Part shown: piece by piece, positions 199 through 60,540 of the stretch | Numbering within the stretch: the first letter of the stretch is position 1 | Layout: each line of letters opens with the position of its first letter | Assembly: GCA_017450025.1 (NCBI GenBank) | Contig: JAFSYJ010000012.1 | Coordinates: 1-60,811, forward strand | DNA length: 60,811 nucleotides | Reading direction: 5' to 3' | DNA from: Clostridia bacterium | Lineage (GTDB): Bacteria > Bacillota > Clostridia > UMGS1883 > UMGS1540 | The notes under the pieces: model-generated | What the model was told of the DNA's origin: nothing | The model's input: the letters and a program-made list of their open reading frames with translations, nothing else | Databases searched by the model: none | Position numbers and translations under genes: made by a program

Positions 199-1587
199 TT
201 AAAATTCTGCGTTGCCGACTGTTCTCGGATACGGTATAACATCGCGGATATTGGAAATACCTGTGAGGTACATAACCGCTCTTTCAAAGCCGAGCCCGTA
301 GCCTGCGTGCTTTGTGCCGCCAAAGCGTCTTAAATCGAGATACCACCAATAATCTTCTTCTTTGAGGCCGAGCTCCTTCATACGCTTGGTTAAAACATCA
401 AGTCTTTCTTCACGCTGTGAGCCGCCTATGATTTCACCGATGCCGGGAACGAGACAATCCATTGCCGCGACAGTTTTGCCGTCGTCATTGAGGCGCATAT
501 AAAACGCTTTGATTTCCTTTGGATAATCCGTTACGAAAACAGGTTTTTTAAATACAACCTCTGTCAGGTATCTTTCGTGCTCTGTTTGCAGATCGCTGCC
601 CCATTCAACGGGGTAGTCAAACTTATCGTTATTTTTCTTTAAAATCTCAACGGCTTCGGTATATGTAACTCTGCCGAAATCCGAATTTGCAACGCCGTGC
701 AGTCTCTCCAGAAGCCCCTTATCAACAAACGAATTGAAGAAGTTTATTTCCTCGGGTGCGTTTTCAAGCACATAATTTATTACATATTTGAGCATATCCT
801 CGGCAAGTTGCATATCGTCCTGCAAATCGGCAAACGCAATTTCCGGCTCGATCATCCAGAACTCCGCCGCGTGGCGCGTGGTGTTTGAATTTTCGGCACG
901 GAAGGTAGGGCCGAATGTATAAACATTGCGGAACGCCATAGCCATTGTTTCGGCGCTTAATTGCCCCGAAACCGTGAGGTTTGCGCTCTTTCCGAAGAAG
1001 TCCTCGGAATAGTCAACCTCGCCGTCTTTTTTGGGAACATCGTTTAAATCAAGCGTTGTAACGCGGAACATCTCGCCTGCGCCTTCGCAGTCGCTTGCCG
1101 TAATTATCGGCGTATGTGAATACACAAAGCCGCGCTCGTTAAAGAACTTATGGATTGCATACGCTGCAAGGCTTCTTACCCTAAAAACAGCCGAAAAGGT
1201 ATTTGTCCTCGGTCTCAAATGCGCTATTGTTCGCAGATATTCGAGCGAATGTCTTTTTTTCTGCAAGGGATAGTCAGGTGTTGACGCGCCCTCTACATCA
1301 ATTTCAGACGCTTTTACCTCAAACGGCTGTTTTGCTTCGGGCGTAAGAACCAAAGTACCCGTAACATTTATGGCCGCTCCGCCGTTTAACGCCGCGATTT
1401 CCTTATAATTTGCAAGGTTATCGCTTTCAAAAACGACCTGAATATTTTTAAAGTATGTACCGTCATTTACCTCGATAAAGCCAAAAGCATTTGAGGCGCG
1501 GATAGTTCTTATCCAGCCTGAAATTTTGACTTCTTTGCCGCCGAAGGATTCGGGGCTTTTATAAATATCACTTACTAAAGCTTTCAT
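199..1587 (-). CDS. asnS: Asparaginyl-tRNA synthetase
   Basis: Class IIb synthetase that charges tRNA-Asn with asparagine in the cytoplasm. The 462 aa match the usual bacterial length. The N-terminal OB-fold anticodon-binding domain covers about residues 1-110. Class II motif 2 is seen as [19 protein letters not shown] and motif 3 as [15 protein letters not shown] near the C-terminus. The start is supported by GGGAGG eleven bases upstream. It follows asnA by only 10 bp, so asparagine synthesis and its use in charging are transcribed together. The presence of AsnRS means this organism does not depend on the Asp-tRNA-Asn amidotransferase route for Asn-tRNA. Confidence 0.97.
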
Positions 1588-1597
1588 TTTATCCTCC

Positions 1598-2605
1598 CTA
1601 CAAAAGCATAATTCCTGCTTTTTTGCACTCCTGAACTGTTATTTTATCCCAAATGCTTGACTGGACTTCGCCTATATGCGCGCAGCCCAAAATGAGCATA
1701 CAAAGTCTTGACTGACCTATTCCGCCGCCTATCGTCAAAGGCAGTTCACCGTTCAGCAAAAGCTTATGGAAATACAGGTTTTTTCTATCCTCGCAGCCTG
1801 CGATCTTAAGTTGTTTATCAAGCGACTGTGCGTCAACTCTTATTCCCATTGACGAGATTTCCATAGCACAGTCAAGCGTATTATTCCAGAAGAAAATATC
1901 GCCGTTCAACGACCAATCGTCATAATCGGGAGCGCGTCCGTCGTGCGGTTTGCCTGATTTGAGCGCACCGCCTATTTGCATAATGAACGCGGTTTTATGC
2001 TCACGGACAAACGCGGTTTCTCTCTCCTGCGGCGTCATCTGCGGGAACATATCCTCAAGCTCCTGCGATGTTACGAATGTGACTTCTTCAGAAAGCTCTG
2101 TCTTGAGCTGCGGAAAGATAAGCCGCATCTGTTTATTTGTGGCGCAAATTGCTTTTACAATGGCTTTAACCGTTAATTTTAAATATTCCTCGTTTCTCGT
2201 TTCACGCGTTATTATCTTTTCCCAATCCCACTGGTCAACATAAACGGAGTGGAAATTATCAAGCTCCTCATCACGCCTTATGGCGTTCATATCGGTATAA
2301 AGACCTTTTCCGACTTCAAAATCGTATCTTTTGAGCGCAAGGCGCTTCCATTTTGCGAGCGAATGAACTATCTGCGCCTCCTCACCGACAGCCGGAATAT
2401 CAAATGAAACGGGTCTTTCTACGCCGTTTAAATTATCGTTTATCCCCGATGCTTCAGTCACAAAAAGCGGCGCTGATACACGCTTTAAATTAAGTGCTGA
2501 GGAAAACTCCTTTTGAAAAGTGTCTTTAATACACGATATTGCGCGCTGCATATCATAGCGGTCAAGCGGCTGTTTATATCCTGCAGGAATTTTTGTCTGC
2601 TTCAT
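1598..2605 (-). CDS. asnA: Aspartate-ammonia ligase (asparagine synthetase A)
   Basis: Makes asparagine from aspartate, ATP and free ammonium. The protein is a class II aaRS-like enzyme of 335 aa, close to the 330 aa of the Escherichia coli enzyme. Recognisable AsnA blocks are [31 protein letters not shown] and, at the C-terminus, [19 protein letters not shown] prefer the ATG at 2605 over the in-frame ATG at 2623, because AAAGGAG sits eight bases before 2605 whereas the upstream ATG has no site. It is first in an operon with asnS and has its own promoter (2632-2660). No T-box or other leader fits in the roughly 20-nt 5' UTR. Confidence 0.96.
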
Positions 2606-2631
2606 ATACCCGTCTCCTTTCATTTGGCTTT

Positions 2632-2660
2632 ATTATATAGCTTTAGGTAAATAAAGTCAA
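2632..2660 (-). promoter_or_regulatory. Promoter of the asnA-asnS operon
   Basis: On the minus strand TTGACT and TATAAT are separated by exactly 17 bp. The predicted start of transcription is near 2625, about 20 nt before the asnA ATG, which excludes a long regulatory leader. Confidence 0.8.
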
Positions 2661-2663
2661 GAA

Positions 2664-2697
2664 AAAAGAGTGTAAAAAAGTAATTTTACACTCTTTT
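2664..2697 (-). terminator. Terminator between the XRE gene and asnA
   Basis: A perfect 14-bp inverted repeat (2664-2677 with 2684-2697) starts right after the XRE stop codon and runs into TTTTTT on the minus strand. It isolates the XRE gene from the asnA promoter just downstream. Confidence 0.8.
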
Positions 2698-2699
2698 CA

Positions 2700-2948
2700 T
2701 CAATCATTATCAACATCTGTAAGCTTGCTGACGGGAACGCCAAGTGCATTACTGATTTTATACAGCGATTTCAAAGACGGCACATACGGCGCGCTCGGTC
2801 CTTCAAGCTGAGAAATAAAATTAAGTGACATTCCGCTATATTCGCTCAACTGTTCCTGTGTCATATTTGCCAATCTGCGGTAATAGCCAACCTTTAAGCC
2901 GACTTTTATTATAAACATTTTATACTCTTTTTCGTTAAAGCTTTCCAT
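2700..2948 (-). CDS. Small XRE-family helix-turn-helix regulator
   Basis: An 82-aa protein that is essentially one Cro/CI-type HTH. The helix pair is seen in YYRRLANMTQEQLSEYSGMS followed by NFISQLEGPS, with the usual SLKSLYKISNALGVPVSKL tail. There is no sensor domain. It is transcribed divergently from the SLOG-like gene, with 131 bp between them, and is cut off from asnA by a terminator. Targets cannot be read from the sequence; the shared intergenic region is the simplest guess. The start at 2948 is preceded by AAAAAGGTG at a rather long distance. An internal ATG ten codons in is possible but would trim the first helix. Confidence 0.8.
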   Translation of the reverse strand: MESFNEKEYKMFIIKVGLKVGYYRRLANMTQEQLSEYSGMSLNFISQLEGPSAPYVPSLKSLYKISNALGVPVSKLTDVDND

Positions 2949-2998
2949 AAAATAAACACCTTTTTATATTTTTATTCTACGGAAATAATTATATACTA

Positions 2999-3027
2999 TT
3001 TACAAATACATTTTTATTGTTTATAAT
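2999..3027 (+). promoter_or_regulatory. Promoter of the SLOG-like gene
   Basis: TTTACA and TATAAT are separated by 17 bp, about 50 bp upstream of the gene start. No clear matching promoter for the divergent XRE gene was found, apart from a TATAAT-like box on the other strand near 2985. Confidence 0.65.
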
Positions 3028-3079
3028 TAAATAAAACTACCGTATTACAGAAGGTAACGCTGTGTGTGAGGGGTTTAAT

Positions 3080-3550
3080 ATGGAGAAAAACTTGAGATGT
3101 TGTTTTGCCGGTCACAACAAAGTATATGGCGAGGATATTCGCGAAAGCTTAGCAAAAACCGCTGAGCTTTTAATAACACAATACGGTGTTAAAGAATTTT
3201 GGATTGGCAATTACGGACAATTTGATTTTTGCGCGAGAAGTATTTTGCAGGCTCTTAAAAAAGAATATGCTATAGAAATTGATTTAGTTATTCCCTATCT
3301 GACAAAAGATATATGCCAAAACACGGATTTTTACCACAAAAGATTTGACAATATTTTAATGGCGGATATTCCTGAAAAAACTCCCAAAAGAATATACATA
3401 ATAAAAGCAAACGAATATATGATAAATAATTCCGAATTTTTAATATGCAATGTTGAATATCCTTGGGGAGGTGCTGCAAAAACATTAGAATATGCAAAAA
3501 GAAGAAAATTGCAAATTTTTAATTTATCAAAAAACAGCCGCGTCATATAA
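3080..3550 (+). CDS. SLOG-like (DUF1273-type) nucleotide-binding protein
   Basis: A 156-aa single-domain protein. It opens with a beta strand and glycine turn, CCFAGHNKVYG, typical of the SLOG/DUF1273 Rossmann-like group, and later has ILICNVEYPWGGAAKTLEYAKRR-like features: a strand followed by GGA and a helix, as in SLOG ligand pockets. The exact call is family-level only. I chose the ATG at 3080 because GAGGGG lies six bases upstream; the GTG at 3062 has no such site. SLOG proteins are predicted to bind nucleotide-derived ligands and some occur in conflict systems, but nothing else here supports a defence role. The neighbour is a divergent XRE regulator. Confidence 0.55.
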   Translation: MEKNLRCCFAGHNKVYGEDIRESLAKTAELLITQYGVKEFWIGNYGQFDFCARSILQALKKEYAIEIDLVIPYLTKDICQNTDFYHKRFDNILMADIPEKTPKRIYIIKANEYMINNSEFLICNVEYPWGGAAKTLEYAKRRKLQIFNLSKNSRVI

Positions 3551-3570
3551 GCGCGGCATAGTTTTCTGAT

Positions 3571-3600
3571 ACGGGCGATTCGTGAATCGCCCCTACGGAC
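3571..3600. repeat. Interspersed hairpin repeat, copy 1
   Basis: ACGGGCGATTCGTGAATCGCCC is followed by CTACGGAC. The arms GGGCGATTC/GAATCGCCC (3573-3592) are perfect. The copy lies between the convergent SLOG-like gene and aspS. It matches the minus strand of 22711-22740, with paired substitutions in the stem. Confidence 0.8.
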
Positions 3601-3672: not shown

Positions 3673-5007
3673 TTACGGATTTAAGCGGTTGGGACCGCGG
3701 AAAATAAACATAGCGTCTTTTATATGCAGACCGAGCAGGAGCATTGTCAGTCTATCTACGCCCAAGCCAAAGCCGCCGTGCGGAGGACAGCCGTATTTGA
3801 AAAATTCAAGATAGAACTTAACATCCTCGTCCAAGCCCTTTTCCTGCGCCTGCTTTTTGAGTATCTCGTAGCGATGCTCTCTTTGTGCGCCTGTTGTGAT
3901 TTCTACGCCGCGCCAGATAAGGTCATAGCCCTGCGGAACGCCGTTTTCATCGCGCATATGATAAAATGCTCTCTTTTCTGCGTTATAGTCTGTAACGAAC
4001 AGAAACTCGTGTCCGTACTTTTTCTGCACCCAATCAAAGCTCAAACGCTCTGCATCTGTTGTGAGGTCGCCTTTTTCGCTTTCGTCAGGCTTATAACCGA
4101 ACTCTTTTTCAAGCTCCTCATACAACTCGGCAAGTGTTATTACGGGGAACGGAGTCTCGGGCACTACAACTTCAATTCCGAACATTTCTTTGATTTCTTC
4201 GCCGTACTTTTCCTTAACGACTCCGAGTGCGTATGCGAGGATATCCGCTTCGATTTTCATAACATCACGATAGGAATCTATATAGCTGAATTCAAGGTCA
4301 AAGCCTGTGAATTCCGTCGTGTGCTTACTTGTATAAGACTTTTCGGCACGGAAAACTGGACCTACCTCAAAGATGCGTTCAAATCCGCTCGCCATTGCCA
4401 TTTGCTTATAAAACTGCGGACTTTGTGCAAGATATGCCGCGCGGTCAAAATATTTAAGCTCAAACACATCTGCGCCGCTCTCGGACGCTGTGCCGATAAG
4501 CTTAGGTGTATGAATTTCCAAAAAGTTTCTGTCCAGAAGGAACTGTCTCATCGCGTTTACCAAAACAGTCTGTACCTTAAAAATCATCTGGTTTTCATCT
4601 GTTCTGAGGTCAATCCAGCGATAGTCGATTCTCTGGTCGATTGACGAGCGTTCAACAGCCTGCTTTTTCTTTGTCGCGGGGATTTCTTTTCTCGCTATCG
4701 GAAGGGCGTCTGCAATGCTCTCAACAACTATCTCGTCGGGATAAAGCTCCATTCCGCCCATTTTGACATACTCGCTGAGCTCAAGGCATCCTACAACGGT
4801 AATTACGGAATCGCCCGTCAAAGCGTCAAGTATCTCTGTCATTTCGGGGTGTTTTTCCTTTTCAACCGTTATCTGGAGCTTGCCTGTAATGTCCTTTAGC
4901 ACAATAAACGCCATTGCCTTGCCGTTTCTGATATTTTCAACAAAGCCCTGTACTTTGATTTTTTTACCTGCGTTGTCCTTTGCGTCCTTTATATATGTTC
5001 TTTCCAT
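3673..5007 (-). CDS. aspS: Aspartyl-tRNA synthetase, archaeal/eukaryotic type
   Basis: Charges tRNA-Asp. At 444 aa it lacks the roughly 100-residue GAD insertion and C-terminal extension of normal bacterial AspRS (about 590 aa), so it belongs to the archaeal-type group. The N-terminal OB-fold spans about residues 1-100. Motif 2 is FRAEKSYTSKHTTEFTGFD and motif 3 GFGLGVDRLTMLLLGL. Some clostridia carry such enzymes, in a few cases non-discriminating, misacylating tRNA-Asn for a transamidosome. Because asnS and asnA are adjacent, a plain AspRS role is more likely here, but specificity cannot be settled from sequence alone. The start is supported by CGGAGG and a 17-bp-spaced promoter at 5032-5060. 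Confidence 0.93.
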   Translation of the reverse strand: MERTYIKDAKDNAGKKIKVQGFVENIRNGKAMAFIVLKDITGKLQITVEKEKHPEMTEILDALTGDSVITVVGCLELSEYVKMGGMELYPDEIVVESIADALPIARKEIPATKKKQAVERSSIDQRIDYRWIDLRTDENQMIFKVQTVLVNAMRQFLLDRNFLEIHTPKLIGTASESGADVFELKYFDRAAYLAQSPQFYKQMAMASGFERIFEVGPVFRAEKSYTSKHTTEFTGFDLEFSYIDSYRDVMKIEADILAYALGVVKEKYGEEIKEMFGIEVVVPETPFPVITLAELYEELEKEFGYKPDESEKGDLTTDAERLSFDWVQKKYGHEFLFVTDYNAEKRAFYHMRDENGVPQGYDLIWRGVEITTGAQREHRYEILKKQAQEKGLDEDVKFYLEFFKYGCPPHGGFGLGVDRLTMLLLGLHIKDAMFIFRGPNRLNP

Positions 5008-58809: not shown

Positions 58810-59064
58810 TTATACTATTTTTTCAAAAACCATAGTAGCCTGAATTCTGTCCCCGCCTAAAAGTCCTTTGCTACCTCCGTTTGAAGTAGCTATGGTATGC
58901 AAGCGATATCCCTTACTTGCCTGGGCGTTGATAACTCCTTCCAATTCCGTCAAATTGCCGGAACCGGTTCCAATAAATTTTTCTTTTAGTGTAACCTGCA
59001 ACACAACATACTGCAAATTCTGTCCTGAAGCTGTTGAATAAGTCGAAGCATCATCGTAGTTCAT
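58810..59064 (-). CDS. DUF4177-like small protein
   Basis: An 84-aa protein with no signal peptide. The pattern LQYVVLQVTLKEKF, then NLTELEGVINAQASKGYRLH and a closing ATMVFEK strand fits the DUF4177 fold (strand, helix with GxxL/H, strands). Function unknown. The ATG at 59064 has AAGGAGG eight bases upstream; the frame is open fourteen codons higher, over that site. It converges on the fab operon. Confidence 0.65.
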   Translation of the reverse strand: MNYDDASTYSTASGQNLQYVVLQVTLKEKFIGTGSGNLTELEGVINAQASKGYRLHTIATSNGGSKGLLGGDRIQATMVFEKIV

Positions 59065-59183: not shown

Positions 59184-59912
59184 TTATTGCAATGCAAACC
59201 ATATACCGCCGCGACCGTCATAATCCAGTCCATATGCGAGCTTTGGATTGCTGTCATTCTTTCTTACCAAAACGCATATCCAGCCTTCTGCGTTGCCGCC
59301 TGCATAAATTTTACCTTCAAATGCCGGCTCCGGCTCAACAACAAATTCCTGCGGCATTTCTTCATTATTGCTGCTGAATGCTGTAAAATCATAGTCATTC
59401 AATGTAAAAGCCCCATCGTTTTCTACATTTAAAGCTGATACCGATACCTTGGCGAGAACATACTCATATCCCTCTTGAGGCTCATCGTTAAACATATTTG
59501 CCTCAATAAGCATTTTCATTGCCTTTTCGCCCCTTACGGTTTCAAGTATTCGCATAGATATTGTATAATCATCGTCGCTGTATTTATTTTCTTTTGTATA
59601 TATCTGCACAGTATCCAGAGGCGCCGGGTTATTTCTTGAATACTGATTTGTGTCAGCAACAGCCGCCTGATTCCCAACCTCTGCTTGATTTAACTCCTGA
59701 TTCCAGTTTATAGGAACTCCAAGTGCCTCTCCCATTGCTCTCAACGGCAAATATGTCCTTCCTTCAACAACAAGTGCCGGCGGATCGGAATTAAACTCTT
59801 TTCCGTTCACCATAACCTTAAATGTCGCCGGCTGTGCTTCATACAATGTAGCTGCTCCAACCGCGCCACACAGTATAATCCCAAATAGCAATCCTGCAAT
59901 AAATTTTTTCAT
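59184..59912 (-). CDS. Secreted protein with copper-amine-oxidase-type N-terminal (stalk) domain
   Basis: A 242-aa protein. A signal peptide (KKFIAGLLFGIILCGAVGAA, residues 2-21) with no proper lipobox is followed by one stalk domain at about residues 30-70 (VMVNGKEF, then ALVVEGRTYLPLRAMGEALG). A linker rich in N and Q, then an immunoglobulin-like DUF4352/DUF5067-type region (YEYVLAKVSVSALNVEND) completes it. The stalk domain is a cell-wall module in Firmicutes and has nothing to do with copper in most of them. It is transcribed from a promoter shared with the divergent XRE regulator. AAAGGAGG precedes the ATG at 59912. Confidence 0.8.
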   Translation of the reverse strand: MKKFIAGLLFGIILCGAVGAATLYEAQPATFKVMVNGKEFNSDPPALVVEGRTYLPLRAMGEALGVPINWNQELNQAEVGNQAAVADTNQYSRNNPAPLDTVQIYTKENKYSDDDYTISMRILETVRGEKAMKMLIEANMFNDEPQEGYEYVLAKVSVSALNVENDGAFTLNDYDFTAFSSNNEEMPQEFVVEPEPAFEGKIYAGGNAEGWICVLVRKNDSNPKLAYGLDYDGRGGIWFALQ

Positions 59913-59933: not shown

Positions 59934-59952
59934 TGACATCTTGTGAATGTCA
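59934..59952. promoter_or_regulatory. Operator-like site 1, TGACA-N9-TGTCA
   Basis: A perfect inverted repeat, TGACA and TGTCA with 9 bp between, lies just downstream of the predicted transcription start of the stalk-protein gene. Its centre is 53 bp from that of site 2, about five helix turns. Confidence 0.75.
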
Positions 59953-59963
59953 TATTTTTTCTC

Positions 59964-59992
59964 ATTATAACATATAATTTCCTTGTTGACAA
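59964..59992 (-). promoter_or_regulatory. Promoter of the stalk-protein gene
   Basis: On the minus strand TTGTCA (which is part of operator site 2) and TATAAT are 17 bp apart. A plus-strand TATAAT at 59973-59978 may serve the XRE gene, although its -35 is weak. Confidence 0.75.
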
Positions 59993-60005
59993 GTAGTAAA
60001 TGTCA
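59987..60005. promoter_or_regulatory. Operator-like site 2, TGACA-N9-TGTCA
   Basis: The same architecture as site 1. It covers the -35 of the stalk-protein promoter and lies between the likely XRE start point and its ribosome site, so one bound protein could block both directions. Confidence 0.75.
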
Positions 60006-60018
60006 AAAGGAGTAAATT

Positions 60019-60261
60019 ATGTTTATAAATAAATCAGCAAAAGGTCTTAATAATATTTGTGGAAAAAACATTGCTGCCTTTAGAAAAGAAATGAATATTT
60101 CACAGCGGGCTCTTGCAGATAAAATGCAAATATTTGGCCTTGATATGGACAAAAATGCAATTCAGCGTATTGAGTGCGGAAAGCGTTTTGTAACCGATAT
60201 TGAAATATGCGCGTTCTCAAAAGTATTAAAAAAAGACTATGCAGACATTTTAAAAGATTAA
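60019..60261 (+). CDS. Small XRE-family regulator
   Basis: An 80-aa, single-domain Cro/CI-type HTH: NIAAFRKEMNISQRALADKM, then MDKNAIQRIECGKRFVTDIE, the recognition helix region and turn, and a KVLKKDYADIL tail. No sensor domain. AAAAGGAG lies six bases before the ATG. The divergent neighbour and the two matched operator-like sites make it a likely autoregulator that also controls the stalk-domain protein (inference). Confidence 0.88.
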   Translation: MFINKSAKGLNNICGKNIAAFRKEMNISQRALADKMQIFGLDMDKNAIQRIECGKRFVTDIEICAFSKVLKKDYADILKD

Positions 60262-60306: not shown

Positions 60307-60498
60307 CCGAACGGTTTAGATGTAGCATCTTAGCTGAATTTTGCACTTCGTGCAAAGCGAAATATTTGCTTTGCAAATGTGAAATTAAAAACCTACGGTT
60401 TTAAGCCAAATTAAATTCGCCAAATAGCGTGCGAAGCACATTTAGCTGCCATAGGCATTTTAGCTGTGCTTGCACAATTTAACTCGCCGTCAGGCGAA
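60307..60498. repeat. Array of about eight tiny hairpins with ATTTAGCT-like linkers
   Basis: Successive perfect stems: CCG/CGG (60307), AGATG/CATCT (60318), TTTGCAC/GTGCAAA (60340), ATTTGC/GCAAAT (60364), AAAACC/GGTTTT (60388), GTGC/GCAC (60429), TGCC/GGCA (60447), TGTGC/GCACA (60465), TCGCC/GGCGA (60484). The loops are 2-4 nt. Several spacers read (A)TTTAGCT or a close variant. No open frame. It fills the gap between the XRE gene and the tRNA cluster. Confidence 0.7.
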
Positions 60499-60505
60499 TT
60501 TAGCT

Positions 60506-60540
60506 AAAAAAAACGCCTTGTCGAAACAAGTCGTTTTTTT

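Follow-up and report, generated by a model that had tools for sequence, protein, structure and literature searches.

The question raised by this locus is whether two matched inverted repeats, lying between a gene for a small XRE protein (xre) and a divergent gene for a secreted protein, are operators of that XRE protein, and what kind of regulatory unit they would then form. Our main reading, to which we assign a probability of about 0.6, is that xre and the two operators make up a self-contained, horizontally shared switch whose action is limited to its own locus. The features of the locus, numbered within the window (the whole 60,811-nucleotide stretch of DNA that was analysed), are as follows.

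59934 to 59952, no strand assigned: predicted operator 1 (outer, distal to xre), TGACATCTTGTGAATGTCA, a perfect TGACA-N9-TGTCA centred near -42 relative to the predicted xre promoter and spanning about +6 to +24 relative to the divergent one
59987 to 60005, no strand assigned: predicted operator 2 (inner, proximal to xre), TGACAAGTAGTAAATGTCA, also a perfect TGACA-N9-TGTCA, over the divergent -35 and at about +3 to +21 of xre
59964 to 59992, minus strand: divergent promoter, TTGTCA (59992-59987), 17-bp spacer, TATAAT (59969-59964)
59973 to 59978, plus strand: predicted xre -10, TATAAT, 20 bp past operator 1, with neither a -35 nor TGn
60005 to 60012, plus strand: xre ribosome-binding site, AAAAGGAG, assigned by sequence
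60019 to 60261, plus strand: xre, predicted regulator, 80-aa one-domain XRE/HTH_3 protein, assigned by the HTH_3 profile
59184 to 59912, minus strand: gene for a 242-aa stalk and DUF4352 protein with a signal-peptide-like N-terminus and the domains Cu_amine_oxidN1 and DUF4352

Two matched repeats lie beside a gene for a one-domain XRE protein

An earlier note on this DNA had described two perfect repeats with the same half-sites and the same gap, and both are present, with their centres 53 bp apart. Its account of the immediate surroundings was also borne out: the minus-strand promoter has its two hexamers separated by 17 bp, one repeat (operator 2) covers the -35 of this promoter and the other (operator 1) lies just past its start, and the product of xre is a one-domain protein of 80 aa whose HTH_3 match (E=6.6e-5) reaches 23.3 bits against a cut-off of 23. 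In first-order Markov simulations of the window, 0.04 perfect sites are expected per window and a pair within 100 bp is expected ~3e-6 times (0/300 simulations contained one); a chance origin of the pair was rejected on the strength of the latter figure. Note that genome-wide the bare half-site pattern is found at four places versus three for the reversed control, and is thus not enriched, so that the evidence consists of the pair and its conservation.

The position of the ribosome-binding site of the divergent ORF (AAAGGAGG, 59930-59923) argues that translation likely starts at the ATG at 59912 and not at the ATG within operator 1, and both repeats are therefore intergenic. An Rfam search of the intergenic region returned no RNA family, only tRNAs, and the reading of the repeats as an RNA element was rejected for this reason. 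(Between xre and the tRNA genes, at 60310-60540 of the window, there is a run of short hairpins, which are inverted repeats with TTTAGCTG/AATTTAGC-like spacers, ending with a terminator-like hairpin at 60507-60540.)

The AF2 model of XRE (pLDDT 90.5) has five helices arranged in a lambda-repressor-like fold, and 24 residues, most of them in the HTH, are invariant across 31 XRE relatives. With its HTH_3 domain and predicted five-helix fold, the protein is an XRE/HTH_3 regulator.

The repeats are conserved together with the regulator

We compared 44 distinct loci, from whole genomes and contigs, in which XRE shares 50% identity or more and sufficient sequence upstream of it is available. Orthologous intergenic regions, whose lack of the half-site pairs the earlier note had named as grounds for abandoning its reading, mostly retain them: operator 1 is perfect in 40 of the 44, and operator 2 is found as well in 35 of those 40. 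(The four loci without operator 1 include one with a truncated xre, L034, and two with uncertain starts, L052 and L053.) Since the half-sites of operator 1 were used in selecting the loci, only the inner positions of that operator count as independent evidence. In operator 1 these are conserved at T6 (39/40), T11 (40/40), A13 (38/40) and A14 (39/40), and in operator 2 at A6 (35/35), A9 (34/35), and both A13 and A14 (35/35). Because inner positions that played no part in selection are conserved, the operator consensus is TGACATTYA-N-TRAATGTCA, and the operators are thus longer palindromes than the earlier note gave. Of the two, operator 1 has the greater symmetry (7.7 of 9 positions, versus 6.0 for operator 2), and the left half of operator 2 deviates (TGWCAAGCA) where it also serves as the divergent -35 (TTGNCA).

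In ~35 further gut-type Clostridia the site pair precedes XRE relatives, and it is adjacent to the regulator every time. Among XRE homologues below ~46% identity the motif is absent, as expected if protein and site co-evolve. The joint conservation of site pair, spacing, promoter and XRE, and the absence of the outer consensus from anywhere else in the carriers, argue that both sites are very probably XRE operators.

The promoter layout suggests that XRE activates its own gene

The divergent promoter, with a predicted start at ~59957, has an extended -10 (the -10 is preceded by TGT), and a TTGNCA-17-TATAAT-like promoter with at most two mismatches is present in 32 of the 40 relatives, in most cases with TGn before the -10. 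On the xre side, in 34 of 40, a TATAAT with no more than one mismatch follows operator 1 at a distance of 19 or 20 bp, and the hexamer at the -35 position has two to four mismatches to TTGACA in all loci. The region in between reads ATTATAnCATATAAT in most loci, which amounts to two back-to-back -10 boxes. Taking the -10 as -12 to -7 (in the window, with a predicted xre start at ~59985) places the centre of operator 1 at -42 or -41 relative to xre, and by sequence a distal site near -42 is combined with a proximal site at the xre start in 35 of 40 loci. A good -10, no -35 and a site at -42/-41 together suggest that xre is probably self-activating; an xre promoter that is simply weak could equally lack a -35.

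The explanation that survives best beside our own is plain negative autoregulation, in which XRE would bind the two sites and act purely as a repressor of both promoters, with an xre promoter that is weak and an operator 1 that, at -42, serves to block polymerase and not to recruit it. Both sites do overlap promoter elements, and one-domain XRE repressors of such a kind are common. Against it, in three loci (L045, L046 and L048) operator 2 and the divergent promoter have been lost while operator 1 and a TATAAT at 19 bp are kept, such that the distance of 19-20 bp from operator 1 to the -10 persists without either; moreover, a missing -35 and a kept distance are the layout of an activator-dependent promoter. 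We therefore regard repression alone as possible but doubtful.

The distance between operator centres is 53 bp in 26, 52 bp in five, 50 bp in two and 49 bp in two of 35 loci. As spacings of 49-53 bp hold no single helical phase, a fixed contact between two dimers is unsupported, and helical-phase looping between the operators was set aside.

The divergent gene changes from locus to locus

The secreted protein encoded in the window matches Cu_amine_oxidN1 (stalk; E=6.2e-10) and DUF4352 (E=6.2e-7). Operator 1 and the divergent start are separated by 14-35 bp in most loci; what is encoded there varies. The divergent genes specify a long stalk protein (L094, in G010), zinc-ribbon proteins with TM and OB-fold (L012 and L037), with TM and DUF4352 (L038) or with LRR (L041), a TM2 protein (L024), lipoproteins (L008, L011 and L090), small membrane proteins (L079, L082, L084 and L091), response regulators (L016, L017 and L095), an acyl-CoA-ligase-like protein (L080) and, on a mobile element, a DUF6809 protein (L077); some carriers have no divergent gene. 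When sorted by a simple hydropathy rule, 17 of the 24 distinct products of divergent genes come out as membrane or secreted proteins, versus 46 of 148 products of neighbouring genes (Fisher p=4e-4).

The divergent promoter is present in 22 of 24 loci with a divergent gene versus 10 of 16 without one (p=0.04). Ten loci, then, retain a strong divergent promoter although no divergent gene is annotated, and control of a cargo gene alone does not explain it there. (In L054, L023, L081, L083, L039 and L042, the strong divergent promoter is kept and no divergent gene is recognisable.) Antisense or short RNAs may be transcribed from such promoters, or these may be relics of lost cargo.

The earlier note had taken the locus for a compact autoregulated pair controlling a secreted cell-wall-type protein. 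The arrangement does fit autoregulation and control of a divergent promoter; the part of the claim that concerns the controlled protein did not stand, since the divergent gene differs nearly everywhere, and the stalk gene is not a conserved partner of xre in related genomes. That regulator and stalk protein form a dedicated regulator-effector pair could still be argued from the divergent genes with good ribosome-binding sites and operators in between, and from G010, one other carrier, of the same order, with a stalk-domain protein, albeit a different one, in that position. Yet relatives whose XRE proteins are 84-91% identical stand beside unrelated divergent genes, and stalk-protein homologues in other genomes have no such operators. 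Furthermore, the stalk gene of the window has a paralogue elsewhere in its own genome with an 80% identical stalk half and no operator, and so this cargo exists without the switch. The changing neighbours largely refute a dedicated pair as a general rule, and we consider that reading improbable, though it may hold as local wiring. The unit is xre with its operators, not xre with the stalk gene.

Several further observations concern the stalk genes and their surroundings. The paralogue (L210 1534-2190; G000 contig C9, ~5033) is 80% identical over its first 94 residues and differs in its C-terminal half, a case of domain shuffling inside one genome. In L186 (G060), at 403-3581, a related stalk and DUF4352 gene lies between a zinc-ribbon/OB-fold-like gene and an ORF that by eye resembles a phage tape-measure gene, a context that suggests that such envelope proteins travel in prophages also. 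Adjoining the stalk gene of the window is a gene for a small DUF4177 protein (58810-59061, minus strand) that matches phrog_22683 (E=3e-44) and is patchily distributed, a search of 118 relatives having recovered it from four other genomes with identities of 65-79%; the phage-family match and the patchiness indicate that this gene may be horizontally acquired too.

The predicted operators are confined to xre, and xre moves between genomes

When 391 genomes of the class were searched by DNA pattern, blind to protein, 24 proved to contain the pair, with one copy in each (reversed control, 0), and at every locus examined the pair lies beside an XRE relative. In each of 21 carriers there is a single genomic occurrence of the full outer-site consensus, TGACATNNNNTRAATGTCA, and it lies at xre; the genome of the window contains no second outer-site match with 0-1 mismatches. 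With a single such site per genome, located at xre, XRE is predicted to be a purely local regulator, and a global regulon was rejected on the same counts. (In the same genome, L211 holds two identical TGACATCTGTTATCTGTCA sites 2.5 kb apart, at 1720-1738 and 4198-4216, or ~196219 and ~198697 of G000 contig C23, with a tandem run of small, similar lipoprotein-like genes between them, next to a further XRE gene; the inner sequence of these sites is off the operator consensus.)

As a species yardstick we used ribosomal protein L2 instead of AccA, which is absent from many genomes. Across 171 genome pairs, XRE identity does not track L2 identity (Spearman 0.02), from which we infer that the cassette of xre and its operators moves horizontally. 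The closest XRE, 91% identical, is found in a genome of another family (G149) at an L2 identity of 82%, and four genomes of the same family as that of the window (L2 88-90%) are without xre. In ~380 genomes of the other classes of the phylum, the pattern of outer site and TATAAT was not found; one contig labelled Gastranaerophilales (L044), which may be mis-binned, is a possible exception outside the class. Integration beside tRNA genes was rejected as a rule, with tRNAs close by at few loci (that of the window, L010, L044 and L093).

Another idea is that XRE is an orphan phage-type repressor providing immunity to incoming elements with the same operators. Its weak PHROG matches are to phage repressors, and the pair occurs on two viral-collection (viral/mobile) contigs, one with a MobV-like relaxase gene alongside. 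However, the best of 50,697 phage records is only 42% identical, and neither these records nor a plasmid search yielded a close XRE relative, for which reason an origin from a plasmid or sequenced phage was rejected; operators beside a lytic operon were likewise not seen. (The 19-mer TGACATCTAGTGAATGTCA is present two to three times in the viral contigs L161, L162 and L176; these copies lie inside phage coding sequence as part of a protein-coding repeat, and were dismissed as phage operators and considered coincidental.) We judge a role in phage-type immunity to be quite improbable. Least credible is that XRE is the antitoxin of a toxin-antitoxin unit, as weak profile matches to antitoxin-type HTH would allow, given that no constant partner is found on either side across ~30 loci, and that the neighbours differ among loci where a type II system would have a constant adjacent toxin gene.

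The genes beyond the cargo are similarly diverse. No Pfam family recurs in more than four of 111 neighbouring proteins from 29 loci, and no restriction-modification family is among the first 25 families listed for these 111 neighbours, PADLOC results included, nor was a constant defence partner found beside xre. In the window itself the neighbours are fab/acc genes, the DUF4177 gene and tRNAs.

A proposed local switch

In the switch that we favour, XRE, presumably as a dimer, would bind both sites, as their sequences predict, and would probably occupy the more symmetric outer operator first. From operator 1, at -42/-41 of an xre promoter that has no -35, it would on the evidence of the layout probably activate its own gene, and would at the same time obstruct the divergent promoter a little beyond the start point. 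With more XRE present, the inner operator would be filled too, covering the xre start (self-repression) and also the divergent -35, thereby repressing the divergent promoter fully. Judged by its consensus hexamers (TTGNCA-17-TATAAT, with TGn), the divergent promoter would be strong without XRE and the neighbour therefore on by default, namely wherever XRE is missing from a cell or scarce in it, or when the cassette has only just reached a new host. This neighbour would be replaceable cargo biased to envelope proteins, in the window the stalk and DUF4352 protein.

A more ambitious version is that the cassette is a mobile plug-in promoter switch that travels between Clostridia, lands beside or carries surface-protein genes, and on entering XRE-less (or rare low-XRE) cells gives a default-on pulse that then shuts itself off, as would a C-protein-like timer without a restriction system. 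We offer this version tentatively and think it rather unlikely to be right in full.

The local switch draws attention to a regulator family whose predicted operator is defined exactly, whose promoter layout is fixed and which has one site in each genome, and in which binding, autoregulation and cargo control are thus directly testable. Were the switch reading true, C-protein-like timing circuits would exist outside restriction systems, and would be reusable in gut Clostridia by swapping cargo, mostly envelope proteins.

Comparison with known systems

The earlier note knew of no described system of this form; that statement was too strong, the closest described forms being the C proteins and the lambda-type repressors. 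XRE has only two PDB profile matches, a designed DNA-binding protein (E=0.0029) and C.AhdI, its best natural match (E=0.0066), and it matches the PADLOC Control_protein profile at only 16.9 bits (E=0.0016). Foldseek and VIA-align group the XRE model with lambda CI, C.AhdI, SinR, P22 c2, ImmR and C.BclI. Because the matches to C.AhdI, SinR, P22 c2 and ImmR are tied (Z ~10-11), the model gives no preference to C proteins; its fold is shared by the XRE family as a whole.

Among regulators with this fold, the SinR/ImmR/CylR2-type proteins of Firmicutes, of which CylR2 is also one-domain, act on fixed target genes, whereas XRE has one locus per genome and varying neighbours. The C. difficile protein Xtr (PMC13260099) was considered and found unrelated (~47 kDa, with a different site). 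In the literature searched, we found none of six operator forms and no description of an orphan controller.

Lambda CI activates PRM from a site centred near -42. Like lambda CI at OR and P22 c2, which share its fold, XRE is associated with divergent promoters between operators, and as in lambda-type repressors a site lies near -42 of its own promoter. Unlike them it has only two operators, no Cro and no constantly associated phage genes; at 80 aa it has neither the C-terminal domain (for oligomerisation or self-cleavage) nor the linked lytic and lysogeny genes that mark phage CI-type lysogeny repressors.

The C proteins of restriction-modification systems (C.AhdI, C.Esp1396I, C.Csp231I and C.EcoO109I) resemble XRE in being single-domain HTH proteins of ~80 aa with two palindromic operators, one distal and one proximal, upstream of their own gene. 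In these systems the distal operator, OL, recruits polymerase and the proximal operator, OR, represses (PMC4041747, PMC4321490). Operator centres are 49-53 bp apart in xre loci versus 33 bp for C.Csp231I (15-bp sites with an 18-bp spacer), the spacing for EcoO109I being somewhat greater than for C.Csp231I (25-bp spacer). C proteins are linked to restriction or methylase genes, none of which was seen near xre among the families listed, and their C-box is GACT/AGTC, unlike the consensus of the XRE operator; for these two reasons we do not file XRE as a C protein. (Note that other C-protein classes likewise depart from the C-box; PMC4321490.) What further sets the xre locus apart from C systems is its strong divergent promoter with changing cargo. 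Judged by its geometry, the locus most likely works as a local switch of the C-protein/CI type.
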